From positions 1 through 47,530 of the IMG/VR virus record IMGVR_UViG_3300027848_000036: a stretch of 47,530 nt of DNA; one strand, 5' to 3'. The DNA comes from a virus. Positions 1,247-47,530 of the stretch are shown here, piece after piece (within the stretch, counting starts at the first letter, position 1; each line of letters opens with the position of its first letter). The notes under the pieces are model-generated. The model was given only the letters and a program-made list of their open reading frames with translations, ran no database searches and was not told the origin of the DNA. Made by a program: the position numbers and the translations under genes.

Positions 1247-1918
1247 ATGAGCGAAGCGCAACCTACAAAAACAATACTTCTCGAACCAAGCGAAGAACAC
1301 CCGATCCCCTATGACCTATCGGATGAAGAACCGAAGACAAAGTTGGATGATCTGAAGATCACTGCAAGTACCGCTGACCTGCTTGATGAACTTGGTGCGG
1401 ACGACAGTATAAACCTCCCTGAACTAGACGACGAAAAAGACGAAACCGCGCTTAAAAAGCTGCTGAAACAAGCGGCCAGTGGTAACGCCAAGGCCTTACA
1501 GTCTAATATAGGTGCGCGCAGCGCGCAGGAATTCATGCGGAACTATTCTTCCGGTCTGGCTATGGATCACGCGCGCATACGCTCCGCGTTGACAAACAAG
1601 CTTCTGGAGCTAGCAGACCATGGGGACGCCAAGATAGAACTAAAGGCTATCGAATTACTCGGTAAACATAGTGATATCGGGATGTTTACAGAAAGATCAG
1701 AAATAAATATCAACTATAACTCCCCAGAAGCGCTGGAAAAAGCAATTAAAGACAGAGTAAAACGCCTGTTGAATGCACAACTGTTGGAAGGCCCACCCCT
1801 AGCGGACACAGTAGATGACCTATTCGCAGGGGTAAGGGAAAGAAGAGAGAAGAATAACATCCCCGAAGGGGATTTTGAAGAGATAGAAGCAGAAGAAGCA
1901 CCCCCTGCTGATGTTTGA
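1247..1918 (+). CDS. terS: probable terminase small subunit
   Basis: Expected to recognise phage DNA and regulate the large terminase during packaging. The call rests mainly on position, directly upstream of and overlapping the large terminase by 8 nt, and on size (223 aa). The N-terminal 85 residues are acidic and low-complexity. The middle (ALTNKLLELADHGDAKIELK and following) is helical and resembles the multimerisation region of small terminases. The C-terminus is strongly acidic. I chose ATG 1247 because GGGG lies 8-10 nt upstream; an in-frame TTG at 1196 would add 17 basic residues and lacks a good ribosome-binding site. No clear HTH is visible, so assignment is by context. Confidence 0.65.
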   Translation: MSEAQPTKTILLEPSEEHPIPYDLSDEEPKTKLDDLKITASTADLLDELGADDSINLPELDDEKDETALKKLLKQAASGNAKALQSNIGARSAQEFMRNYSSGLAMDHARIRSALTNKLLELADHGDAKIELKAIELLGKHSDIGMFTERSEININYNSPEALEKAIKDRVKRLLNAQLLEGPPLADTVDDLFAGVRERREKNNIPEGDFEEIEAEEAPPADV

Positions 1919-4412
1919 AGAAATCAAAATAGAAGATATCCCGAAGATACTGCCGCTCCTGTCCCCTGCGGAGCAGGAACTTCTTCTTGCCGAACTTGAA
2001 AAACTGGACAACCTGAAGAAGCGCAAGGCTGCGCAGGACCACTTCATGCCGTTCGTGCGGGAAGTATGGCCTACTTTTATATCAGGGCGGCACCATGCCA
2101 TTATGGCCGAGGCGTTTGAACGTGTGGCTGCGGGGACGTTAAAGCGCTTAATAATCAACATGCCACCGCGCCATCGGCTTGATATAAAAGAAGAAATCCC
2201 CACTACTACGGGATGGAAAACTGTCGAGACTGTAGAGACAGGGGATTATGTGTTCGCCCCAGATGGCACGCCTGTGCGGGTTATGGGTAAGTCGGCCCAG
2301 TACGAGGAAGACCTATACGAAGTCAAAACGGGTGATGGACAGGTAATAACCTGTGATGCTACCCACCTATGGACGGTGCGGTTTGGGTCGAACGATAGGC
2401 CATATCAGACGCTTTCTACCCAAGAAATCCTTCATAAGTTGGAGACAGAGAGTTGGCGCGAGTCAGGTAACCTCCCAATACTGCCCTCGCAGGAAGCCGC
2501 TAAGTACCCACATAGGCACGACTTACCCCTAACACCTTATATGCTAGGTGTATGGCTGGGGGATGGAAGTACGTACGGGGCTTCCATTGGCTGTGGGCGC
2601 GGCGACCAGCCTGCTATGCGAGCGCAGGTTGAGGCAGAGGGATACCAAACTACACACAACCCGAAATACCAGCAGTTTAATGTGTTGGGGACCCATAAAG
2701 TTCTACGTGAGCGGGGTATCCTACACAACAAACACATACCAGAAGAGTACCTGTGCGCTTCTGTAGAACAGCGCACCGCGCTCCTCCAAGGGCTTATCGA
2801 CACCGACGGTGACGTTACCAAGGAAGGGAAGGTAACCTTCAATAACAGTAACGAGCGGCTTATAGATGACACACTATGCCTTCTGCATGGACTAGGGGTT
2901 AAGGCGCGCAAAACGCGCCGCCAGACTAGCTACAAAGGGAAGCCGAGCCAACCGTCATTCCGGCTGATGTTTAAGATGGAGAACGCTGCGCGCCTTCCAC
3001 GCAAGGCGGAACGCTGCCGTAGTATGCGGGGTAACTGGGGGCGTAGTATAGATGTGTGCAAGACCACTAGGCGGGGGATAGTCCAGTGCTTGGAGGTGGA
3101 GAACACCGATGGTTTGTTTATGGCGGGCCGTGGGTGGGTTGTAACCCATAACACAAAATCCGAGTTCGCCTCCTACCTTCTTCCCGCATGGTTCCTCGGT
3201 AAATACCCCCAGAAGAAGGTTATTCAAACTTCCCATACCGCGGAGCTAGCCGTTGGCTTCGGGCGTAAAGTGCGTAACCTGTTCGATACAGATATATTCC
3301 ATGAATTGTTCCCCGGCGTGGCCTTGCAGGCGGATAGTAAGGCTGCTGGCCGCTGGCAGACAAACAAGGGCGGCGACTACTTCGCTATTGGTGTGGGCGG
3401 GGCCGTTACGGGTAAGGGCGCAGATGTACTTATTATCGATGATCCGCACTCCGAGCAAGAGGCGGCGCTAGCGGAAATAAACCCGGATATCTACGACAAG
3501 ACCTACGAGTGGTATACCTCTGGTCCGCGGCAGCGGCTCCAGCCGGGAGGGGCCATAGTCGTGGTTATGACCCGCTGGAGTAAGCGTGACCTTACAGGGC
3601 AGGTGCTGAAGTCCTCCAGCCAGCGTGGAGGTAATGAGTGGGAGGTTATAGAGTTTCCTGCGATCATGCCGTCAGGCAAGCCCCTGTGGCCGGAATTTTG
3701 GCCTATGGAGGAATTGACTGCACTGAAGACAGAACTGCCCAACAGCAAGTGGATGGCGCAGTACCAGCAGAACCCGACTTCTGACCAGTCTGCTATTATC
3801 AAGCGGGAGTGGTGGCAGGAGTGGCCCCATGATGACCCGCCACATTGTGAGTTCACCCTCCAGTCGTGGGACACAGCGTTCGAGAAGACCCAGCGTGCCG
3901 ACTATTCGGCGCTAACAATGTGGGGTGTGTTCTACAAGGAGGACGAGACAGGGACCAAGCAGCCCAACATTATCCTCCTGAATGCGTTCCGGGAGCGGAT
4001 GGAGTTTCCGCGGCTGAAGCAGGTTGCCATACAACATTATAATGACTGGGAACCTGATGGAGTAATTATTGAGAAGAAAGCCTCGGGCGCGCCACTCATA
4101 TACGAGCTTCGGGCTATGGGGTTACCGGTGCAGGAGTATACCCCGACCAGAGGTAATGATAAGATTTCCCGCCTGAACGCCGTGGCCGATATATTTGCCT
4201 CCGGGCGGGTGTGGGCACCCAACACACACTGGGCGGAAGAAGTTATAGACGAAGTGGCAGAATTCCCCGCAGGTTCCCATGATGACTATGTTGATAGCCT
4301 CAGTTTGGCGATGATGCGGTTCCGGCAGGGTGGCTATGTCACTACGCTACTAGACGAAGATGAAGAACAGATGTACTTTAAGGGCAGAAGCTCACGAAAA
4401 GGGTATTACTAA
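1911..4412 (+). CDS. terL: terminase large subunit, intein-containing precursor
   Basis: ATP-driven DNA packaging motor and nuclease that docks on the portal. The precursor is 833 aa; removing residues 89-414 (an intein) leaves a 507-aa terminase, a normal length. The ATPase P-loop region reads NMPPRH, intein, TKSEFASYLLP, so the insertion sits exactly in the nucleotide-binding loop. Walker B is ADVLIIDDPHSE (504-515). The C-terminal RNase H-like nuclease has SWDTAF (D654) and SHDDYVDS (D791, D792). The gene overlaps the small terminase by 8 nt, and its TAA overlaps the portal ATG (TAATG at 4410-4414). Without splicing the motor should be inactive, because the ATP-binding loop is split. Intact frame and conserved motifs argue that splicing is functional. 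Confidence 0.96.
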   Translation: MFEEIKIEDIPKILPLLSPAEQELLLAELEKLDNLKKRKAAQDHFMPFVREVWPTFISGRHHAIMAEAFERVAAGTLKRLIINMPPRHRLDIKEEIPTTTGWKTVETVETGDYVFAPDGTPVRVMGKSAQYEEDLYEVKTGDGQVITCDATHLWTVRFGSNDRPYQTLSTQEILHKLETESWRESGNLPILPSQEAAKYPHRHDLPLTPYMLGVWLGDGSTYGASIGCGRGDQPAMRAQVEAEGYQTTHNPKYQQFNVLGTHKVLRERGILHNKHIPEEYLCASVEQRTALLQGLIDTDGDVTKEGKVTFNNSNERLIDDTLCLLHGLGVKARKTRRQTSYKGKPSQPSFRLMFKMENAARLPRKAERCRSMRGNWGRSIDVCKTTRRGIVQCLEVENTDGLFMAGRGWVVTHNTKSEFASYLLPAWFLGKYPQKKVIQTSHTAELAVGFGRKVRNLFDTDIFHELFPGVALQADSKAAGRWQTNKGGDYFAIGVGGAVTGKGADVLIIDDPHSEQEAALAEINPDIYDKTYEWYTSGPRQRLQPGGAIVVVMTRWSKRDLTGQVLKSSSQRGGNEWEVIEFPAIMPSGKPLWPEFWPMEELTALKTELPNSKWMAQYQQNPTSDQSAIIKREWWQEWPHDDPPHCEFTLQSWDTAFEKTQRADYSALTMWGVFYKEDETGTKQPNIILLNAFRERMEFPRLKQVAIQHYNDWEPDGVIIEKKASGAPLIYELRAMGLPVQEYTPTRGNDKISRLNAVADIFASGRVWAPNTHWAEEVIDEVAEFPAGSHDDYVDSLSLAMMRFRQGGYVTTLLDEDEEQMYFKGRSSRKGYY
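2175..3152 (+). other. class 3-type intein with LAGLIDADG homing endonuclease in TerL
   Basis: A 326-residue in-frame insertion (precursor residues 89-414) between PPRH and TKSE. It starts with Arg, not Cys or Ser, so it lacks the class 1 nucleophile. The class 3 signature WCT is present: Trp154 in block B (ATHLWTV), Cys393 in block F (VQCLEVENTDGLFMAG) and Thr412 before the terminal His413-Asn414. The first C-extein residue is Thr415. Block A is recognisable (TTTGWKTVETVETGDYVFA). Both endonuclease motifs are intact: LGVWLGDGS (212-220) and LLQGLIDTDGDV (291-302), each keeping its acidic residue. Boundaries are set by aligning the flanks to the usual terminase PPRHxKSE loop. It probably splices itself out and can home into intein-free terL alleles. 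Confidence 0.93.
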
Positions 4413-12013: not shown

Positions 12014-12273
12014 TGGATGAAGTACATTGGTGGAATCTTATCCTTTCAGCTATATCGGGGTTGGTTATGTATTTGTTAAAAAGTCATTCCGATGAAGTGA
12101 AGCGGGTTAGTAAATTATTGAACCAGACGCGTGAGCAGGTCGCCCGTGACACTATGTCGCGTACTGAAGCTTCGGCTGCGTTCAAAGAACTCCAAATACG
12201 CATCGACCATCTAGGAGATAGGTTGAGCGATAAAATAGACAGTAACAACAGTAGATCAGGCGGGGGGAAATAA
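12013..12273 (+). CDS. single-span membrane protein with coiled coil, 86 aa
   Basis: GTG start overlaps the previous TAG by one base. Residues 6-22 (WWNLILSAISGLVMYLL) form one membrane segment. The remainder is a charged amphipathic helix (KSHSDEVKRVSKLLNQTREQ to DHLGDRLSDKIDSN). One N-terminal helix plus a cytoplasmic or periplasmic coiled coil is typical of small phage membrane proteins, including some holins or holin partners. It is well away from the lysis genes at 16.7-18.3 kb, so its role is open. Confidence 0.65.
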   Translation: MDEVHWWNLILSAISGLVMYLLKSHSDEVKRVSKLLNQTREQVARDTMSRTEASAAFKELQIRIDHLGDRLSDKIDSNNSRSGGGK

Positions 12274-12274
12274 T

Positions 12275-12744
12275 ATGGCCCAGAGTTTCAAACAAGCATT
12301 CGCAGCGGCGCGCAAAGCCAAAGGCGCGGGGGGTACATTCTCGTGGAATGGTAAAAAATGGAATACTGATTACGAGGGGGAAAAAGCTGGTAAGGCTGCG
12401 GCCAAGTCAGGTCGGACTATGCCTGCTGCGCCTACTCGTGGAAATAATATGGCCCAGAGTTTCAAACAAGCATTCGCAGCGGCGCGCAAAGCCAAAGGCG
12501 CGGGGGGTACATTCTCGTGGAATGGTAAAAAATGGAATACTGATTACGAGGGGGAAAAAGCTGGTAAGGCTGCGGCCAAGTCAGGTCGGACTATGCCTGC
12601 TGCGCCTACTCGTGGAAATAATATGGCCCAGAGTTTCAAACAAGCATTCGCAGCGGCGCGCAAAGCCAAAGGCGCGGGGGGTACATTCTCGTGGAATGGT
12701 AAAAAATGGAATACTGATTACGAGGGGGAAAAAGCTGGTAAGGC
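12275..12744 (+). repeat. 174-bp perfect tandem repeat, 2.7 copies
   Basis: Copies begin at 12275, 12449 and 12623 with period 174 bp (58 codons). The third ends at 12744. I find no mismatches between copies. Each copy starts with ATGGCCCAG preceded by GGAAATAAT, so the duplicated unit includes the sequence just upstream of the original start codon. Perfect identity implies recent expansion by slippage or recombination. Confidence 0.93.
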
Positions 12745-13297
12745 CGCCCCCAAGAAAGAAACCGAGGCTGCGGCCAAGAAAGAAACCAAATACACAGGCT
12801 CATTAGCGGGGAAAGGGTTTACACCCCCAGCAGCGAAAAAACCTTCGGATGCTTTACGCGCTGCTGCGGCCAAGAAAGAAACCAAATACACAGGCTCATT
12901 AGCGGGGAAAGGGTTTACACCCCCAGCAGCGAAAAAACCTTCGGATGTGAATAGTAAAGACCTCCCAAAAGCGGGGGGCACCACCAGAGGTACCAAAGTT
13001 GTTGGTGGGCCACAGAAACACCCTACGTCTATGGTCGTAGATAAAGACTCCTTGGCAAATAAAGCGGGTCCAGCCGTGCGTAAAGCTATAAGCGATATTG
13101 GGAGCTGGGCGAGTGAAGTGCGCAGCAGAGATATCCGCGAAACAGAAAAAAAAGCCGCGGCCTCTCAAAAGCGAAGGCTCGCAGCGGCTAGTAGCACCAA
13201 AGCCGCCAAGGGGGGTAGTATCAAAAAACTCGCCAAAGGGGGCCGTGTAGGTGATGGGTGCGCCAAAAGTGGGCGTACTAAGGGAAGGTTTGTGTAA
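12275..13297 (+). CDS. Lys/Gly-rich protein with internal tandem triplication, 340 aa
   Basis: The N-terminal half consists of a 58-residue unit beginning MAQSFKQAFAAARKAKGAGG, present twice in full and once as a 41-residue copy. The DNA copies are identical. A second duplicated unit, based on TKYTGSLAGKGFTPPAAKK, follows. The C-terminus is GGRVGDGCAKSGRTKGRFV, a motif shared with the next two reading frames. The unit FSWNGKKWNTDYEGEKA occurs in many phage virion-associated proteins, in my recollection, but its function is not known to me. High lysine content suggests DNA or capsid-interior association. Starts one base after the previous stop. Confidence 0.75.
   Translation: MAQSFKQAFAAARKAKGAGGTFSWNGKKWNTDYEGEKAGKAAAKSGRTMPAAPTRGNNMAQSFKQAFAAARKAKGAGGTFSWNGKKWNTDYEGEKAGKAAAKSGRTMPAAPTRGNNMAQSFKQAFAAARKAKGAGGTFSWNGKKWNTDYEGEKAGKAAPKKETEAAAKKETKYTGSLAGKGFTPPAAKKPSDALRAAAAKKETKYTGSLAGKGFTPPAAKKPSDVNSKDLPKAGGTTRGTKVVGGPQKHPTSMVVDKDSLANKAGPAVRKAISDIGSWASEVRSRDIRETEKKAAASQKRRLAAASSTKAAKGGSIKKLAKGGRVGDGCAKSGRTKGRFV
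12767..12947 (+). repeat. 85-bp direct repeat, two copies
   Basis: Identical 85-bp stretches at 12767-12851 and 12863-12947 (period 96 bp, 32 codons) encode AAAKKETKYTGSLAGKGF and the following PPAAKKPSD. This is a second in-frame duplication inside the same gene. Confidence 0.9.
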
Positions 13298-31167: not shown

Positions 31168-32817
31168 ATGGTGGACCAAACAACTTCCTTTGATATGATG
31201 CAGCCGGAAACAATCGCCAAGGAATATGGCGGTAGCAAACAGAAAATAGCCTTGGCGATGCAGCAAGGGCTTGTTGACCCCACAGCGGGCACGTTGGCGG
31301 GGATGTTTATTGACCGTATGCGGTCTAGGGATATGTTAGGACAAGGCGCACCACCTACTGTAGTGCAGCAGGTGTTCGCACCTCCGCAGCAGCAGCAGCA
31401 GGGCGCGCCTCCGCAACCGGGAGGACCGGGGGCCATGCCTCCTCAACAAGGCATGGGTGGTCCTCCCACGGGTATGGGCGGTCCTCCTCCTGAGGGTGCG
31501 ATGATTGCTCCACCTATGCAGGGGTTGACGGACTTGCCTGTACCCGACCAAATGTTCGGCGCGGAGCAGCCGTCTATGGCTGGTGGAGGGCTGGTTGCGT
31601 TTGCTGGTGGGGGGTCAACTATAGAACGTATGGTACCAATAACCTCCTATAGTGAGAGCAGGAATAACCCTAACGCAGTGAGTCATAAAGGGGCGAAAGG
31701 GCTTATGCAAATAATGCCAGCTACAGGGCGCGATCCGGGCTATGGTGTGGATGCGTGGGATGGTTCAAAAGAGGATAACCTACGTTTTGGTACCGACTAT
31801 CTTAACGCTATGATGAATGAATTTGGTGGCGACCCAGCGAAAGCGTGGGCAGCGTATAACGCCGGTCCGGATGCCACACAAAAGGCGATTAAAAAACACG
31901 GGAAAAACTGGCTGTCCAAAATGCTAAAAGAAACCCGTGACTACGTGGCTACGAACACTAGGGCGCTTGATGGGAAGACAAACGAAAAACCCCTTACCAC
32001 TGACCAAGCAGCGACAGGACTGCCCAGCCTAGAACCCGGAATAGCCAGCGAGTACGTTGGCGAATACAAACAGATGGTGCCCAGAGATTATACCAATAGG
32101 GATGAACTTATGGCAGCGTTGGCCAAGGAGCGTTCCCCTGAAGCCAAGAAAGCACAGAAGGATCAGGATATGTGGTCCATGCTGGCGCAAGTTGGTTTCG
32201 GCACGGCTGCGGGTAAGTCGGGTAATTTCCTTACTGACCTTGGCAGCGCGGCTAATGCTGCGCTACCTGCTGCACAAGAAGCCACAGCAGCGCGTAAAGC
32301 ATCCGATATGGAAACCCTGAACGCGCAAGTTGCGCTTGAGGCCAGCGGCAACGCAGACCTCGAAAGAGACGCAGGTGTCGGTATTGCTTTGTATAAATCT
32401 TCTGTCGATAACCTGTTGCGCAAAGAACTTACAGACCAAGAAGACCAACTTAGACGCGACGGTATGAAGCAGGAGGAAATACTCGCAGGACGCCAGCAAC
32501 GCGCAACTGCTATAAATACACGACTTACAGTAGAGGCTTCCAAACCACAGACACAGCGGGCTGCGGACACAATCTACAACGTTATGAGGGATCGCCAACG
32601 CGAGAATTACAAAACGTATGAAAATGGTAAGGCCGCAGCTTTTGGCCTGTTCAAAAAGAACGGTAATCCAAAAGCAGAATCAGAGTTACGGGCTATGGCG
32701 CTACAGGCAGCTATGGACCAAGAAACGCGAGCAGATATTGCTAAGTATGAGGCTAGACCTAGCCAGCAGCCAGATAATTTTAACCTTGGCGTCACCGCGG
32801 CGTCGTTTGATTCATAA
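31168..32817 (+). CDS. virion-associated lytic transglycosylase, 549 aa
   Basis: Probably opens the peptidoglycan during DNA entry. N-terminal helical domain, then a Pro/Gly/Gln-rich linker (about residues 70-115), then an SLT domain: SYSESRNNPNAVSHKGAKGL with catalytic E163, MQIMPATGRDPGYG, and AKAWAAYNAGPDA. The remaining 300 residues are helical and charged. No signal peptide, as expected for a virion enzyme. Its stop is coupled to the giant gene that follows (TAATG). Confidence 0.88.
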   Translation: MVDQTTSFDMMQPETIAKEYGGSKQKIALAMQQGLVDPTAGTLAGMFIDRMRSRDMLGQGAPPTVVQQVFAPPQQQQQGAPPQPGGPGAMPPQQGMGGPPTGMGGPPPEGAMIAPPMQGLTDLPVPDQMFGAEQPSMAGGGLVAFAGGGSTIERMVPITSYSESRNNPNAVSHKGAKGLMQIMPATGRDPGYGVDAWDGSKEDNLRFGTDYLNAMMNEFGGDPAKAWAAYNAGPDATQKAIKKHGKNWLSKMLKETRDYVATNTRALDGKTNEKPLTTDQAATGLPSLEPGIASEYVGEYKQMVPRDYTNRDELMAALAKERSPEAKKAQKDQDMWSMLAQVGFGTAAGKSGNFLTDLGSAANAALPAAQEATAARKASDMETLNAQVALEASGNADLERDAGVGIALYKSSVDNLLRKELTDQEDQLRRDGMKQEEILAGRQQRATAINTRLTVEASKPQTQRAADTIYNVMRDRQRENYKTYENGKAAAFGLFKKNGNPKAESELRAMALQAAMDQETRADIAKYEARPSQQPDNFNLGVTAASFDS

Positions 32818-35800
32818 TGGGTTATAATTTGCAGGCAGCGCGTAAAGCCGGAGTCCCAGACGCCGAAATAGCTGCGTATCTAGGTGAAAAATACGGGTAT
32901 GACACAGCGGCGGCTAGTTCAGCCGGAGTGCCTAGTAGTGAGATAATAGCATACCTAATTTCCCCGGCAGCGGCCAAAAAAAGAGCCGCAAGGGAGAAAG
33001 CAGCGGAAGACGACCAGAGTATCCTACGCAGTGTAGCAGATAGCCCCCTCATTATTGCCGAGAGTGCAATAAGTAGCGCTGCGTCTATCGTGGATTTATT
33101 TGGTGCAGACAATGCGGTGTCGGATACTATGAAGGATATGGCTTCATGGGTAAGCAGCTTCCGTTCCGCGCAGTCTAAGAAGGATGCAGCAGAGCAGCGG
33201 CGGTTGTTCAAAGAAGCCGAAGATAAAGGTATCTGGGAGAATTTCAAGGCTGCTACTAAGTCAATAGGGGTAGCCCCTTTGGATACGCTTTCTATGGTCG
33301 TTGGCAGTGCCGCACCTTATGTTGCCTCCATACTGGGGGGTTCGGTTGTTGCGGGTGGTACAGCCATTGCTGGTGGTGTGGGTGTCGTTAAAGGCTCTAT
33401 ATACGATGCTACAGAAGAAGCCCTGCTGAAAGCAGGAGTGAATGAGAAAAGCGCAGCAGAAGCCGCAGCAGAAGCCCAGTCATATGGGGGCGAAAACCTT
33501 GATATGATCGCTTTGGGGGGTGTTATTGGAGGTATAGCAAACAGACTCGGTGTGCCCCGTGTGTTGGCGAAAACCCTAGGTATCCAGACCACAAAAGAAA
33601 TAGCCGCGAAAGCCGCGGCTAAGGAAGTAGCTAGAGCCGCAGGCAAAGAAGTAACCAAGAAAAGTGTGCTTAAAGAAGGAGCGAAGGAATTTGCGGTAGA
33701 AGGCCTAACTGAGGCTACACAGGCAGGGCAGGGGCAGTTTTCGCAGAATCTAGCCCTGCAACGACAGGGTTTTGATGTACCACTATCCCGCGGTGTGGCG
33801 GGGCAGGCCGCGTTTGAAGGCTTGGCTGGGGGCATACTTGGTGGTAGTCTTGGTGTGCATAACGTTAGGGTGGAGAACAAAACCCTAAAAAGGGTCAAGC
33901 AGCGCGATGCTGATGGGGTTGATAAGGCTGAAGAAGCGATTGTACTTCCACCTTCAGACGAGGAGAAGATACGTGAAGCGTTTAAGGATGATCCTACGCC
34001 GGATAGGGCGAATGAGGCGCGCAGGTTTCGCAGCCTCTATAGCGGAGTACCTATTGCCGATGCTATCGCGCAAGGGAAAGCCCTCCCCGACCCAAACGCC
34101 CCAGCCGCAGCAGACCTTGCAACCGTTGGAGACACTGTACCAGACGCCGGGGGCACCGCCGCAGCCGTTAACCCTGCCGGAAGTCTCAACGGCTTTCGCC
34201 GTACTGGTGAGTCCAATACCGTTGGCGGAACAGAACCTGCCGCCGCGCCTAGCGATGTTACAGCAGGAGGAGTGGCAGCACCTAGCCCACTGGTACCTCG
34301 GGGTGAAGCAGGAACGAGAGCAGCAAACGATACACTAGCTGTAGACGATGCTGAAGCAGCTACTGGGGTAACTCTAGAGCCTGCCAAAAAAGAGCGGGTT
34401 GCCGCTGGGTTCCTAGCAAACCCTGAAATCGCTGCAGACCCTGCAATGGCGCAGGAGGTGGTTCGCACCGCGGCTGCCCTGCCGCTGGTAAACCCACTAT
34501 TAGATGAAACACCCGCCGATGTAGGAATAGAGTCTAGTCCTATAGAGCCTCTGAATACTAGAGAAGGGGTATCACTACCGGATTCCCAGCCCACAGCGAG
34601 GCTCAATAAGGAAACTGCGGATATTTCTTCGCTGCGTACAGTCGCGGAAAGAAAAGCAGCATATAAACCACTAGTGGCAGCGGAAGTAGCCCGCCGGGAG
34701 TTGGACCTCAAAACACCTGAAATACAAAAACTAGTCAATCAGACTACGGACAGGTTAGCACGCGCCACCGACCCGCTGGTGGACCCCGCAGAGGCAGTCG
34801 ATGTAGTTGCTAAAGAGCGTGGATTGAACACCATACCAAAAACTACTGCACCGATGCCGGAAATATCCCCTGTGGATGCTGACCCAGATCAGGAAAGCTT
34901 CCAACAGTATAAGAGAGGGGAAATACAATATGGGGATATGACTACCGGCGCGGTAGAAAGGCTTAAAGTTGCGCGCGATGCGGAGAATTACGCAGCGGTG
35001 TTAGCAGACGAACCAAACATTACACGCGAGGAATATGAGCAGCGGAAAACCGGTGGTATGGGGCTATTCCGGGATATGATGGAAGGTAAGGTTAACCAAG
35101 ATGGCAGCCTTGCGCCAGTAGAGGAAGCACCTGCGCCTGCGCCAGTAGAGGAAGCACCTGCACCTGCGCCAGTAGAGGAAGCACCTGCACCTGCGCCAGT
35201 AGAGGAAGCACCTGCACCTGCGCCAGTAGCCATAGAAGACGTACAAGTAGACTCTACATCTACGCCTGTAGCTATGGAGGAAGCACCTGCACCTGCGCCA
35301 GTAGAGGAAATATCCCCTGAAGCGGAAGCCGAATTAGCGGCCCTGCCGTTCTCTGAGCAAGCAGCGCTGGTTAACGACAGCATACAAAACACTAGTGGTA
35401 TTAACCAAGAATATAAATACCACTATCTCCCCAAGGATACCCAACCCTACCGGCTGTTGCAGATGAACGATGGGAGGAAAAATACTGTTGCCCTCAAGGA
35501 CGGCACCCTTGCAGGGCTAATGCGGCAGATTGCGGGTGTGGAAGCCAATACTGTGGGTAAGATAAAAAAGGCTAACGCCACAGAGCATAAAGCAAACGCC
35601 AAGTTCAAAGAAACCGGGGAGCGCGCTGTACTCCTAGCGGATCAAATAGAGCCGGGGGTAGCACCTGAAATAACCCCCTTCATGCGGGATATGCAGAATT
35701 TATATGGTAATCTGGCGGGATTGGTGGAGTCGGGTAAGATAAACCCTAGCCAGTTCGCGAAGATTAAAAACGCTATCGAAGAAGCCAACGCGCTACCTGA

Positions 35801-38800
35801 AGAAGCACAGACGAAAGAGGCGTTTAACAAAGTTGTTGTTAAAGCGGGTGTCCAGCAGAAGTTGATGGACGCGGGGCTGGCGTTCCGTGGGCTAGACGAA
35901 ACCAGTAAAACCCCCACTTCTCCGCTACACATGAACCGCAATGAACCAGTATCGGAAAACCTCCGGGACTTGCTGTGGACGGCGCAGTTCCAAGTAGACG
36001 CGCTAGAGAAAGCAGGTAAGTTACGTACACGTACTGGGTCTAAACCTGCTATCCCTATTACAGTAGACGTACTAAAGGATTTGGTTCTCCCTATAACGCG
36101 TAACTGGAAGTCCCGGCTGGAGCCAAAATTCTACGAAACCTTCGCAGACCTCCCTGCCGATATACAGACCATAGTAGACGATATGGGTGCGGCAGACACC
36201 ATACAGGGCATGGCTATCGACAATGCTCTATACTTTGTTGCCGAAAATATTGCCTCCGAGGCAGAGGCGAAAGCTGTGCTGTTCCATGAAGCCTTGGGGC
36301 ATGTTGGGCTGCGGGCTAAATTTGAAACCAAAATGGACAAGGTTCTTGAAGACATATACGACACCAACCCGAACGTACGGGCGCAAGCCGACGCTTGGGC
36401 CGCTGCCCACCCCGACGAGTACGTAGACTTCAAAGACCGTGGTAACGAAAAGGCTCTATCCGTAGAGGAAGTGCTTTCGGGTATGCAGGAGCAGGGAGGG
36501 CCAATAGTAGGACCGATGGCCAAAATAGCCGCGGTGGTACGTCAATTTGGTAGGATGTTAAGCAGAGCCTTCAAACGTATAGTACCGTACACAGATGCGG
36601 ATGTTCGAGCTATCCTAGCGTCTGCTGCTAAAGAAATAACTGGTAGTAAGGGAGTTGTGGCCCGCAATTCCCCCGAAGGGAGAGCCGCGCTGAAGGCGCA
36701 AGCGTCGAATAATAAAGTGTCTGCGAAAGCGGAGGCTTCACATTTCGGCACCAACCAGAGAAGTTTCAAGGAACTTACTGACTCTATCTGGGAAGCTGTA
36801 GCGGACGGCCACGCTTGGGAATCATGGAAGGGGTCTGTATCGAAACTCCTACCTTCCCTCCGCGGGAAACATTTTGATACTATGCTTAACGCCCTGCCCA
36901 CGGATGCCATTATTGATTGGCATGATGATCTGTTTATAAAAGCACAGAAACTGGCCCCTAGGACTGTTACCGCTCTACGTAGTATGGCACGTATAATACC
37001 CAAGATGACCTCCTTCCGGTCTGCACTGGCTGATGCGACAGGGAGATTGGCTGACGAACTAGGCGATTTTGTGCGTGTGTACGGGGTAAAGGAATTGTCC
37101 GACGCACAGCATGGCTCGCGGGTTGGCGCAGTAGACCCTGAAACTTTCGGGAGTAAGACCCTTGAGGAAGTTTACGCCACTGACCCTGTGGTGCAAGATC
37201 AGACAAGGATGATGAACGCTACAGCTAACAAGGCTGCGAAAGGCGCACACAAAGGCAAAATAACCATACGTAAAAAACAGATAGAGCCAGTGTATAACGC
37301 ATGGAAGGAACTTGGCAGGCAGGCTGGGGGGCAAAAACTATATGCTAAGATGCGGCAGTATTATAAAGATATGAACGCGTTGGAGCGCACGCTGCGTAAC
37401 CAAAAGATCAAGAACATGGGTCTAGACCCCGCTTCTGAGGCTAAATTGCTCGACACTATACGGCTGGAGCAAGAAGAAGCCTTTGGAGAGACTGACGAAC
37501 ACGATACAGCTTCATCGCTATACCCAAAAGTATACTTCCCACTTATGCGCCATGGGGACTATTACTTGTCCATTAAGAACCCTGAAATGTTGGGAGGACG
37601 GCAGTTTTTTCTAAGCGATAGCCCCGGCCAGAGGGACGACATTATGCGGGACCACGCTAAGTTTGTGGGTAAAACTGTAGCAGAATTGCAAGCCGACCCT
37701 GACTACTTCAGCACTGGCGACCTAGCGGAAATGAATAATGATTTTGAAGAGAGTAGCAAAATGCTGCGGGATCAATTCGAGATTATTGACCAACTGACCG
37801 CGGTAAACAACAGCAAATATGATATAAGTAAGCATGGTAGCCCCGCAGCGGCCCTTGAGGCGATGAAGCAAGACCTGAAGGACGACCTTTACCAGACCTA
37901 TCTACGCACGCGCCCGGAAGCCTCGCTCCGTAAACGGTTCATCCACGCCAAGGCAGTTACGGGATATAGTAACGATCTTATGCGCACCCTTATTGTGCAG
38001 GGGAACCAATACTCCTCCCAACTAGCCAAACTGAAATTTGGGAAGGATATACAGGCCGGTATAGACGCGTCGTATGAAGCCCTAGAGGGTATGCCACAAA
38101 AGGATACAGACAAGCTACAGCCTATGATTAAGCAGGTAGCTGATATGGCGATGCAGATACTGAACCCCCCAAAAAGGGGCGCGTTTGCTTCCGCTATGAG
38201 CCAAGCATCTTTCATATGGTTCCTGACCGCGCCCGCTACTGCCGCTGTCCAACTTACTGTTATCCCTATGCGCGTACTGCCTAGGCTAACTGCTGAGTAT
38301 GGAGAAGTTAAGGGTTGGAAGGCGCTAACCAAATTCTCTGCTGCCTTCAAAATTAAAGGGGGGGACCATCTTATCAGTTTGGAGGGTTCCGCTTTCCTGA
38401 AGGACCATCCGATTCTGGCTATGGCGTTCAAAACCCTGCGCGACGAACGGGAGACGTTTGGTGCGCTTGTCACGGAGGTACTGCGCAACGACGAAGCGCC
38501 TCTCAATGCCCAGAAGAATGCCTATACTTTGGGTATTAAAGTAGTTGGTGCGGCTATTTCCGCTACAGAACGTATGTCTCGTGAAGTAGCGGGTATGGCT
38601 ACCTTCGAATTAGAGTACGCACGCCTAGGTAAGACACAACCTGAACTTAGCCCGGATGCGCGTTTTGAACTGGCTATCGACGTAGCCGCGGACACAGTTA
38701 ACCGCACGGTCGGTAACTACAGTGAGTTTAATAAGCCAGCAGTGTTCAAAGGGGATACGGGGCGCTTGCTGTTCCAGTTCAAAACCTTCTCTGCAATCAC

Positions 38801-39842
38801 CACGCACTTCTTCATAAGCACCGCGCGCCGTATGTTGTTGGGGCTAGTAGGCAAGGGAGTAAGCAAGGCTGATACAGTAGCGGCTTGGCGGGAAATGACC
38901 GGGGTTCTCGCTATGGGGGCCATTATGTTTAACGGAATAACTGGCCTACCCCTGTTCAGTGTGGCTATGTGGATTATAGACCTAGCCAGTGAAATGTATG
39001 ACGACGATGACGATGACGAGGAAATGCGCAAGCAAAGCCCCTACGGGGCGAACAGCGCAGAGTATCGCTTCCGTTACGAATGGCTCCCTGAAATGCTAGG
39101 GCAGAAGGTAACGGATGGGGCGGAGTCAACCACTTTGGTAGACATGATCCTCAACGGTGCATTATCTGAACTTACTGATGCAAACGTCGCCTCTCGTACT
39201 AGCTACAACGACCTATGGTTCCGGGATAATTCCTACGCCACTGACTCTACTGCCCAAACGTGGTTTTCCAACCTTATTGGTAATGTGCCTATACTGTCGC
39301 TGATAGACAAAGCAGGGCGGGCCAAGGATGAACTTGATAAGGACGAATTCGGGCGGGCGGCTGAAGCCATAATGCCCGCGTTTGCTCGTACATCTATCAC
39401 CGCTGCTAGGTTTAGTAGCGAAGGGGCAAAGTCACGCGCTGGGGACACTATATTCTCTAAACACCAACTCAGTGGCGCAAACATAGCCATACAGGTACTT
39501 GGCTTCCCCCCTGCGCGCCTATCCCAAGTGCAGGAAGAGCGTATGGAGCGGGACAAACTAGCCGGTGAGGCGAAACAAGAGCGTACTGCCCTACTGCACA
39601 AACTCAACCTAACGCGCGTTAGTTACCCAGTAGATAGAGAAAAAGTGGATGGTATCCTCCAAAAAATGGAGGAACATAACAAAAAATGGCCTGCTCCAGA
39701 CTTGATGATTTCCCGCGAAACAATCAATAAATCTTTCGACACCTCCATGAAGGGTAAGGAATTACAGTTCGGTGGGGATACCTTCACCAAGAAGGATGCG
39801 GCGCGCGAGTTGCCCGGAGCAATGCAGGCTAGAGGTAAATAA
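32817..39842 (+). CDS. giant polyvalent internal virion protein, 2341 aa, with HExxGH metalloprotease motif
   Basis: Largest gene in the window; likely injected with the DNA, analogous to T7 gp16. N-terminal repeats QAARKAGVPDAEIAAYLGEK and SSAGVPSSEIIAYL; a hydrophobic region at about residues 160-245 (APYVASILGGSVVAGGTAIA); a Pro/Ala-rich linker including four 27-bp repeats coding PVEEAPAPA (about 768-803); a zinc metalloprotease motif HEALGHVGL at 1157-1165 with nearby acidic residues; a long helical middle; and a C-terminal domain with LLFQFKTFSAITTHFFIS (about 1984-2001) and a membrane-like MGAIMFNGITGLPLFSVAMW, resembling the large polyvalent protein (LPD, PLxRFG) modules. The protease could self-process or attack host proteins; that is inference. 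Confidence 0.88.
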   Translation: MGYNLQAARKAGVPDAEIAAYLGEKYGYDTAAASSAGVPSSEIIAYLISPAAAKKRAAREKAAEDDQSILRSVADSPLIIAESAISSAASIVDLFGADNAVSDTMKDMASWVSSFRSAQSKKDAAEQRRLFKEAEDKGIWENFKAATKSIGVAPLDTLSMVVGSAAPYVASILGGSVVAGGTAIAGGVGVVKGSIYDATEEALLKAGVNEKSAAEAAAEAQSYGGENLDMIALGGVIGGIANRLGVPRVLAKTLGIQTTKEIAAKAAAKEVARAAGKEVTKKSVLKEGAKEFAVEGLTEATQAGQGQFSQNLALQRQGFDVPLSRGVAGQAAFEGLAGGILGGSLGVHNVRVENKTLKRVKQRDADGVDKAEEAIVLPPSDEEKIREAFKDDPTPDRANEARRFRSLYSGVPIADAIAQGKALPDPNAPAAADLATVGDTVPDAGGTAAAVNPAGSLNGFRRTGESNTVGGTEPAAAPSDVTAGGVAAPSPLVPRGEAGTRAANDTLAVDDAEAATGVTLEPAKKERVAAGFLANPEIAADPAMAQEVVRTAAALPLVNPLLDETPADVGIESSPIEPLNTREGVSLPDSQPTARLNKETADISSLRTVAERKAAYKPLVAAEVARRELDLKTPEIQKLVNQTTDRLARATDPLVDPAEAVDVVAKERGLNTIPKTTAPMPEISPVDADPDQESFQQYKRGEIQYGDMTTGAVERLKVARDAENYAAVLADEPNITREEYEQRKTGGMGLFRDMMEGKVNQDGSLAPVEEAPAPAPVEEAPAPAPVEEAPAPAPVEEAPAPAPVAIEDVQVDSTSTPVAMEEAPAPAPVEEISPEAEAELAALPFSEQAALVNDSIQNTSGINQEYKYHYLPKDTQPYRLLQMNDGRKNTVALKDGTLAGLMRQIAGVEANTVGKIKKANATEHKANAKFKETGERAVLLADQIEPGVAPEITPFMRDMQNLYGNLAGLVESGKINPSQFAKIKNAIEEANALPEEAQTKEAFNKVVVKAGVQQKLMDAGLAFRGLDETSKTPTSPLHMNRNEPVSENLRDLLWTAQFQVDALEKAGKLRTRTGSKPAIPITVDVLKDLVLPITRNWKSRLEPKFYETFADLPADIQTIVDDMGAADTIQGMAIDNALYFVAENIASEAEAKAVLFHEALGHVGLRAKFETKMDKVLEDIYDTNPNVRAQADAWAAAHPDEYVDFKDRGNEKALSVEEVLSGMQEQGGPIVGPMAKIAAVVRQFGRMLSRAFKRIVPYTDADVRAILASAAKEITGSKGVVARNSPEGRAALKAQASNNKVSAKAEASHFGTNQRSFKELTDSIWEAVADGHAWESWKGSVSKLLPSLRGKHFDTMLNALPTDAIIDWHDDLFIKAQKLAPRTVTALRSMARIIPKMTSFRSALADATGRLADELGDFVRVYGVKELSDAQHGSRVGAVDPETFGSKTLEEVYATDPVVQDQTRMMNATANKAAKGAHKGKITIRKKQIEPVYNAWKELGRQAGGQKLYAKMRQYYKDMNALERTLRNQKIKNMGLDPASEAKLLDTIRLEQEEAFGETDEHDTASSLYPKVYFPLMRHGDYYLSIKNPEMLGGRQFFLSDSPGQRDDIMRDHAKFVGKTVAELQADPDYFSTGDLAEMNNDFEESSKMLRDQFEIIDQLTAVNNSKYDISKHGSPAAALEAMKQDLKDDLYQTYLRTRPEASLRKRFIHAKAVTGYSNDLMRTLIVQGNQYSSQLAKLKFGKDIQAGIDASYEALEGMPQKDTDKLQPMIKQVADMAMQILNPPKRGAFASAMSQASFIWFLTAPATAAVQLTVIPMRVLPRLTAEYGEVKGWKALTKFSAAFKIKGGDHLISLEGSAFLKDHPILAMAFKTLRDERETFGALVTEVLRNDEAPLNAQKNAYTLGIKVVGAAISATERMSREVAGMATFELEYARLGKTQPELSPDARFELAIDVAADTVNRTVGNYSEFNKPAVFKGDTGRLLFQFKTFSAITTHFFISTARRMLLGLVGKGVSKADTVAAWREMTGVLAMGAIMFNGITGLPLFSVAMWIIDLASEMYDDDDDDEEMRKQSPYGANSAEYRFRYEWLPEMLGQKVTDGAESTTLVDMILNGALSELTDANVASRTSYNDLWFRDNSYATDSTAQTWFSNLIGNVPILSLIDKAGRAKDELDKDEFGRAAEAIMPAFARTSITAARFSSEGAKSRAGDTIFSKHQLSGANIAIQVLGFPPARLSQVQEERMERDKLAGEAKQERTALLHKLNLTRVSYPVDREKVDGILQKMEEHNKKWPAPDLMISRETINKSFDTSMKGKELQFGGDTFTKKDAARELPGAMQARGK
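35118..35225 (+). repeat. four 27-bp tandem repeats (PVEEAPAPA)
   Basis: Four tandem 27-bp units within the giant gene, with one synonymous difference in the first. A further partial copy occurs near 35277. They encode a Pro/Ala/Glu linker, probably a flexible or extended spacer between domains. Confidence 0.85.
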
Positions 39843-46879: not shown

Positions 46880-47530
46880 CGCTGGCCCTGCCCATTTAGC
46901 GCCTGCCATTCCTCGATCCATTCAAGGGCCATCTCCGCAGCAAAGCCGCCACCAGTATCATCGCCGGGTTTGTCACCCTCTCTAATCATAGAGAACCACT
47001 GTTCTGATGGATCAGACGCGTTGTGGTGGATTTTATTGTAATCAACGCACCTCGCGTTTGCGATTGTTCCGACGAGACAGGCGCACTCGCCTTCATATTG
47101 AGAGCCATCTACACGGCCATTGCGTAGGCTCTCAGCGAGTGCGGGAACCTCGGTTTTGTTTTCGGTCAACGTCATCCACAAACATGACTTGAAAGAACGC
47201 AGGTCGGCACCGTTCAGGTCGGCATCGCTCAGGTCGGCACCGCTCAGGTCGACATCGCGCAGGTCGGCACCGCTCAGGTCGACATCGCGTAGGTCGGCAC
47301 CGCTCAGGTCGGCACCGCTCAGGTCGGCACCGCTCAGGTCGGCATCGCGCAGGTCGGCATCGCTCAGGTCGGCATCGCGCAGGTCGGCATCGCTCAGGAC
47401 GGCATCGCGCAGGTCGGCATCGCTCAGGTCGGCATCGCGCAGGTCGGCACCGCTCAGGTCGGCATCGCGCAGGTCGGCACCGAACAGGTAGACACCGCGC
47501 AGGTCGGCACCGTTTTTCACGCCCCACCGG
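46876..47530 (-). CDS. pentapeptide-repeat protein, 5' end at or beyond the window edge
   Basis: Residues from about 4 to 107 are A(D/N)Lxx pentapeptide repeats (GADLRDADLSGADLRDADLS), about 21 units, expected to form a right-handed beta-helix. A C-terminal domain of about 105 aa follows (SFKSCLWMTLTENKTEVPAL, CACLVGTIANARCVDYN, then MALEWIEEWQAL). GTG at 47520 could start translation, but the frame stays open to the edge (RWG before VKNGADLRG). If the ends are joined it starts at ATG base 5, giving MSRWGVKNGADLRG. Pentapeptide proteins can mimic DNA and inhibit gyrase; that role is not shown here. First gene of the early operon. Confidence 0.85.
   Translation of the reverse strand, partial: RWGVKNGADLRGVYLFGADLRDADLSGADLRDADLSDADLRDAVLSDADLRDADLSDADLRDADLSGADLSGADLSGADLRDVDLSGADLRDVDLSGADLSDADLNGADLRSFKSCLWMTLTENKTEVPALAESLRNGRVDGSQYEGECACLVGTIANARCVDYNKIHHNASDPSEQWFSMIREGDKPGDDTGGGFAAEMALEWIEEWQALNGQGQR
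47207..47508 (-). repeat. 15-bp degenerate tandem repeats encoding pentapeptides
   Basis: A 15-bp unit (plus-strand form AGGTCGGCACCGCTC) recurs about 20 times with a few alternative bases, in phase with the pentapeptide code. Low sequence divergence between units implies recent expansion or homogenisation. Confidence 0.85.

Follow-up and report, generated by a model that had tools for sequence, protein, structure and literature searches.

The window, by which we mean the whole stretch of DNA that was analysed, is the complete 47,530-base virus record IMGVR_UViG_3300027848_000036 and contains one copy of terL. The open-reading frame at 1911..4412 was identified as the terminase large subunit (TerL) by its matches to Terminase_6C in Pfam (2.9e-10) and to PHROG 38, terminase large subunit (3.3e-99), and it holds the only P-loop-type intein of the window, all remaining matches lying at E 0.8 or worse. 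The gene directly upstream is called the terminase small subunit by position only, and a longer open-reading frame there (1196-1918) matched neither Pfam nor PHROG. The features of the locus are as follows.

1247..1915, + strand: gene directly upstream of terL, terminase small subunit by position
1911..4412, + strand: terL precursor open-reading frame, 833 aa, stop included in the coordinates
1911..2174, + strand: N-extein, 88 aa, its terminal PPRH (2163-2174) being the start of the P-loop by alignment with intein-free TerLs
2175..3152, + strand: intein assigned to class 3, 326 aa, precursor residues 89-414
2355..2372, + strand: block B DxxH and Trp, with Asp61, His64 (B:10) and Trp66 (B:12)
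2544..2567, + strand: LAGLIDADG motif 1 (LGVWLGDG), acidic Asp130, Asp in 52/52 unique inteins
2790..2810, + strand: LAGLIDADG motif 2 (GLIDTDG), acidic Asp211, Asp in 47/52, LAGLIDADG_3 match at 7.8e-10
3087..3089, + strand: Cys305 (F:4) in VQCLEV, precursor Cys393, predicted initiating nucleophile
3144..3152, + strand: Thr324 (G:5), His325 (G:6) and Asn326 (G:7), the intein C-terminus, followed by the +1 Thr
3153..4409, + strand: C-extein, 419 aa, its first residue the native +1 Thr of TKSE

Placement of the insertion in terL

The first-pass annotation had described a 326-residue in-frame insertion between PPRH and TKSE, and its coordinates (2175-3152), length and residues were all correct. 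It had also proposed a check, namely that intein-free homologues resume exactly at this junction, and they do. With the C-extein alone as query, which imposes no selection against a P-loop intein, PPRH was found joined to TKSE in 80/80 viral-contig TerLs (L015-L094, the best 80 of at least 597 C-extein relatives), as well as in the TerLs of pelagiphage HTVC027P (L001) and phage DSL-LC04 (L002), indicating that the +1 Thr is a native TerL residue. The C-extein matched intein-free TerLs end to end, with no second intein in it, and the joined exteins, computed from the translation, come to 507 aa. This terL site is occupied by the same intein in seven other contigs, at 67-83% identity to that of the window. 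By GC content (0.536, compared with 0.515 and 0.548 in the exteins) the intein has no foreign base composition, and no close bacterial source was found for it among 64 loci in genome_contigs, the best of which was 35% identical.

Several other features of the window were recorded. A 21-base unit is repeated 5.4 times (98% match) at 972-1084, immediately 5′ of the terminase genes, and a 30-base unit 10.5 times at 47198-47512, the right end of the record. The open-reading frame 12275-13297 contains nearly all of two exact tandem repeats, of 174 and 96 bases respectively, at 12266-12744 and 12767-12947, and a 2341-residue open-reading frame at 32817-39842 had no Pfam match at E 0.001.

Splicing residues, fold and the LAGLIDADG domain

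Class 3 inteins are defined by the lack of a nucleophile at A:1 together with Trp B:12, Cys F:4 and Thr G:5 (Kelley 2016, PMC5050341), and in block G the positions G:6, G:7 and G:8 are His, Asn and the +1 residue (PMC5222942). The window intein begins with Arg, where a class 1 intein would have Cys or Ser, and the Arg start, the block B Trp (Trp66, in HLW), the block F Cys, the Thr-His-Asn terminus and the +1 Thr that had been read from the translation are each present in it. The W-C-T triplet reported with them also stands, with the clarification that its Thr is G:5, the Thr324 of THN, and not the +1 Thr (PMC5050341).

To place these residues in a family, sequences were collected by a pattern for the C-junction only (THN followed by TKSEF), which gave 94 stretches, 80 of them listed as loci and 79 with an open-reading frame. 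Both junctions were located in 62 of the resulting 80 sequences (79 loci and the window); six of the remaining 18 start after GPRH and were missed by the N-junction pattern, and 12 have no N-junction in the open-reading frame. The alignment thus holds 62 full-length inteins including that of the window, 52 of them unique (51 and the window). Trp B:12, Cys F:4 and His B:10 are each present in 52/52 unique inteins and the Asp of the block B DxxH in 50/52, while the 52/52 for Thr-His-Asn is not independent, since it was fixed by the search pattern. Residue 1 is Ala in 35, Arg in 13, Asp in two, Lys in one and Cys in one, so that a nucleophile stands there in 1/52; a varying first residue with an invariant F:4 Cys is exactly what class 3 chemistry predicts. 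The single exception, the P-loop intein at L105:1900-2946, has the full WCT set and Cys1.

General intein profiles recovered this family poorly. The window protein was not matched by Pfam Intein_splicing, which matched 2/42 family members at E 0.1, and scored 12.3 bits with the NCBIfam intein C-terminal model, below its 15.6 cut-off. When a profile of 42 family members was compared with the PDB, the first matches were the class 3 DnaB inteins 6bs8 (7.1e-21) and 6rix (2.4e-20), followed by gp41-1 and then the PI-SceI endonuclease. An AlphaFold2 model of the intein (pLDDT 92.9, pTM 0.91) superposed (VIA-align) on the class 3 intein 6bs8_C at 1.4 A over 123 residues (Z 19.2) and on PI-SceI 1jva_B at 3.2 A over 320 residues (Z 27.6, 19% identity). 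By these two superpositions, the splicing domain resembles that of class 3 inteins and the full-length element combines HINT with LAGLIDADG; the HINT fold, blocks A, B, F and G, the C-terminal His-Asn and a +1 residue from among C, S and T (Thr) are all in place. The assignment of a class 3 intein to the TerL P-loop made in the first-pass annotation is therefore borne out by sequence, by family-wide conservation and by the fold model.

The endonuclease domain, claimed earlier to be intact and in frame, likewise looks intact in both sequence and model, where the two motifs with their acidic residues lie in a LAGLIDADG fold and from which activity is predicted only. PF14528 and PF05204 exceed their cut-offs in the window intein, and LAGLIDADG_3 and Hom_end match 42/42 family members at E <=0.1. 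Compared with L008-L010, dN/dS is about 0.06-0.09 in the splicing and endonuclease parts alike, a rough estimate because dS in these comparisons is 1.2-1.9; read with caution on dS, it argues that both functions are maintained. In the 320-aa inteins L102, L106, L111, L120 and L152, the motif 2 acidic residue is lost and the counted splicing residues are kept.

Distribution of TerL inteins and alternative readings

A quick tree of 75 inteins, supported by SH-aLRT only, separated two lineages at 100, one of 18 inteins with Arg, Asp or Lys at residue 1 and one of 57 with Ala there in 56 and Cys in one. The two lineages are mixed on a tree built from 65 carrier exteins, which omits the long branches L126, L156 and L187, with 8 changes compared with a shuffled mean of 13.5, although 13/48 inner branches are open and the well supported branches force only 3/8 of the changes. 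L105 (Cys1) was grouped with the Ala1 inteins there, following the intein tree, and with the other group in a 235-row tree. A single clade of an intein lineage on the extein tree was rejected (AU p 8.7e-7). Presence and absence across the 235 exteins required 29 changes compared with a shuffled mean of 59.7 (range 55-65), on a quick tree that has many long rows and leaves 85/212 inner branches open. As far as this weakly resolved tree shows, the P-loop intein is thus clustered yet patchy, a distribution that fits a homing element. TerLs that lack the intein are common, numbering at least 120 stretches.

Transfer is also visible at the junctions, where nucleotide identity was profiled per 17-codon bin. 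Between L008 and L010, identity is 54-76% in the N-extein, 86-100% in 18/19 intein bins and 70% in one, and 54-86% afterwards, and intein dS is 0.18-0.30 where extein pS is 0.77. Between L009 and L010, the N-extein gives 90-100% and the intein 82-100%, with a drop to 64-78% from the C-junction onward. L117 and L128 give the reverse pattern by dS, 0.49 in the extein and 1.4-2.0 in the intein. For the P-loop intein family, there is good support for spread between phages, and these clear transfers concern relatives of the window. The window intein is 83% identical to its nearest relative, that of L008, and the nearest exteins to those of the window are empty ones at 82%, the nearest carriers reaching 79%. 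The proposal that the endonuclease makes the intein mobile between co-infecting phages accordingly holds for the family, from the conflict between trees and the identity steps at junctions, and does not extend to a recent transfer of the window's own intein, whose arrival is not dated as recent. Conservation of the DNA at empty sites was also considered as a recognition sequence and rejected as uninformative, because the pattern used to choose many of the 187 empties covered that site.

Relatives carry inteins at further TerL sites. Class 3-like inteins at Walker B were found in 62 stretches, with Ala1, Trp and the F:4 Cys in 32/32 unique full-length sequences and no N-junction found in 16/62 loci, and class 1 inteins at the C-motif (M/TRW) in at least 120 stretches. 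Both a Walker B class 3-like intein (DPH/SEQ) and a P-loop intein occur in one TerL in L009/L125, L127, L151, L165 and L499. The idea that the second intein depends on the first (10/52 nonredundant P-loop carriers compared with 0/98 empties, Fisher p 1.4e-5, kinship ignored) was dropped because many second-site carriers have an empty P-loop: PPRHTKS is uninterrupted in 25/123 C-motif loci and 8/62 Walker B loci, with further variants besides. L118 has a class 1 intein before Walker B (C...THN/CIIDDPH) with a 220-residue HNH-like open-reading frame in the +1 frame, in which Pfam matched only NUMOD1 (2.5e-6).

Given the placement, the residues, the fold model, the constraint on the family and its spread, we interpret the element as a class 3 intein with an in-frame LAGLIDADG domain in the TerL P-loop, a selfish mobile element at a highly conserved site, and give this reading a probability of roughly 0.94. 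The chemistry and the cutting we infer. By analogy with class 3 biochemistry, Cys305 would attack the His88-Arg1 bond after translation, the N-extein would be transferred to the +1 Thr, and Asn326 would cyclise to release a 507-aa TerL with its P-loop restored. During co-infection, the endonuclease would cut intein-free terL between PPRH and TKSE, and repair of the cut gene would copy the intein across, a spread already seen in the family phylogeny. With its P-loop split by the insertion, TerL would be expected to have no ATPase activity until spliced, and splicing should be necessary.

The necessity of splicing does not make the intein a timed switch, however, and for the suggestion in the first-pass annotation that it delays packaging we found no evidence. 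Such a switch might work through oxidation of Cys305, with Cys60, beside the block B Asp, as a possible partner, slowing splicing and delaying packaging under stress. A precedent exists in the class 3 intein Msm DnaBi1, where a Cys48-Cys118 disulfide blocks splicing (PMC6195587), and Cys60 is present in 14/17 non-Ala1 inteins and 0/35 Ala1 inteins, but this conservation may reflect descent. Since intein-free TerLs are common and presence is patchy, as fits a homing element, no switch is needed, and published TerL inteins, those of class 3 among them, spliced readily in the reported experiments (PMC5050341); we consider regulation of this kind very unlikely. A broader version, in which TerL is a multi-site intein battleground (class 3 at the P-loop and Walker B, class 1 HNH at the C-motif, with interphage spread) combined with Cys60/Cys305 redox-conditional packaging, is quite unlikely as a whole; within it, the analysis supports the several sites and the P-loop intein's spread, the redox part being no more than conceivable.

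The remaining alternatives concern the element itself. A relic that no longer splices, its insertion having inactivated TerL and left a defective phage, would be compatible with the lone terL of the window and with splicing being a prediction, but the catalytic residues and open frame are retained, dN/dS is low in both intein domains and the element has an open frame in many other contigs too, making this most improbable. We give almost no weight to the idea that the intein belongs to class 1 or class 2 and that its first residue has degenerated. Although the class 1 intein gp41-1 also ends in THN and a +1 Thr is found in other intein classes too, F:4 is Cys here rather than the Asp usual in class 1, the B:12 Trp and the DxxH are conserved as described above, and class 3 inteins are the nearest solved relatives. 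A selfish class 3 intein thus remains our preferred reading.

Nested endonucleases and comparison with known inteins

Outside the window, the class 1 C-motif inteins of TerL (L108 (=L010), L104, L114, L147, L376-L492) carry an HNH endonuclease outside the intein's own frame. Among 123 C-motif loci, 120 found by the C-junction pattern and three from the P-loop search, an open-reading frame that contains a DHxH motif and spans 100 residues or more lies in the +2 frame in 104 and in the +1 frame in none, 19 having no such frame. The intein frame is interrupted in 2/104 and otherwise stays open across the nested one (102/104, three of them running to the end of the sequence analysed), and synonymous recoding of the nested protein preserved the open intein frame in an average of 13% of trials, in a set of 76 inteins from loci chosen for an open intein frame. 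Three nested proteins were compared with Pfam and matched Endonuclease_7 (PF02945) at 7e-20 to 3e-17. A start codon stands at intein base 237 in 63/71 unique inteins (ATG 51, GTG 12), and 57/70 inteins with any start have a loose Shine-Dalgarno-like match upstream, a count made without a shuffled control. Pairwise comparison of 14 inteins gave higher conservation in the nested frame than in the intein frame for 91/91 pairs (mean identity 0.53 compared with 0.33). Phages Chandler, Phlyer, Angelicage and AlanGrant (L550-L553) likewise have the +2 frame open, over 178-209 residues and with a first start at intein base 240, and their records list the terminase alone (Phlyer also its intein) and not the nested gene. 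The Chandler intein is among the TerL inteins shown to splice (PMC5050341). We found no mention of an out-of-frame or overlapping gene in the portions of Kelley 2016 (PMC5050341) used here, and search results from the literature returned no description of a nested endonuclease, which may hold wider interest than the P-loop intein itself.

With the class 3 inteins Msm DnaBi1 (6bs8) and Mch DnaB1 (6rix/6riy) the window intein has in common the splicing fold, the WCT residues and the DxxH, the last described for Msm DnaBi1 (PMC6195587). Unlike the window intein, DnaBi1 has no endonuclease (PMC6195587). The class 3 DnaB mini-inteins sit in a helicase with a +1 Ser, whereas the window intein sits in TerL with a +1 Thr. 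The full-length HINT plus LAGLIDADG architecture is instead common to the window intein and PI-SceI (the Sce VMA intein, 1jva). PI-SceI is a class 1 intein of a yeast gene.

The closest published systems are the mycobacteriophage TerL inteins at the P-loop, Walker B and C-motif (Kelley 2016, PMC5050341), five of which, including the class 3 TerL1-c and TerL1-e, spliced in a reporter, and two of which, TerL1-b and TerL1-c, cut intein-free partners. These inteins (TerL1-a to -e, TerL6-f) and that of the window have in common the TerL host, insertion at ATPase motifs, LAGLIDADG and a sporadic distribution, and some are class 3 with WCT as in the window. TerL1-e (phage Gaia) is 33% identical to the window intein, and 33% over the whole length is also the identity of the best-ranked relative in 50,697 phage records, where the relatives lie in terminases, RecB-like or Cas4 genes and HNH-annotated genes (among the 40 of 728 matches listed). 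The sites differ. TerL1-a lies between the invariant Lys and the Thr/Ser (K to S/T), whereas the window intein lies between H and TKS, two residues upstream and outside that definition; TerL1-b is one residue from site a according to the text of PMC5050341, and the window site two. With junctions placed by eye, eight TerL inteins in phage records lie six at K to S/T, two elsewhere and none at H/TKS. L006 (YungMoney) has a class 3-like TerL intein at K to S/T with a penultimate Arg, and the class 3-like inteins of L003 (CcrColossus) and L007 (Vibrio phage D456), also at K to S/T, by eye have no Trp two residues after the block B His.

A literature search, from its search results, returned no published account of the H/TKS site or its clade. 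Class 3 TerL inteins are already published; the site and clade of the window look new, extending such inteins to a phage group found almost only in metagenome contigs and offering an insertion point shifted relative to the classic P-loop site, a large family for comparison, clear footprints of transfer, and intein-bearing and empty TerL pairs as ready material for tests of homing and class 3 splicing.
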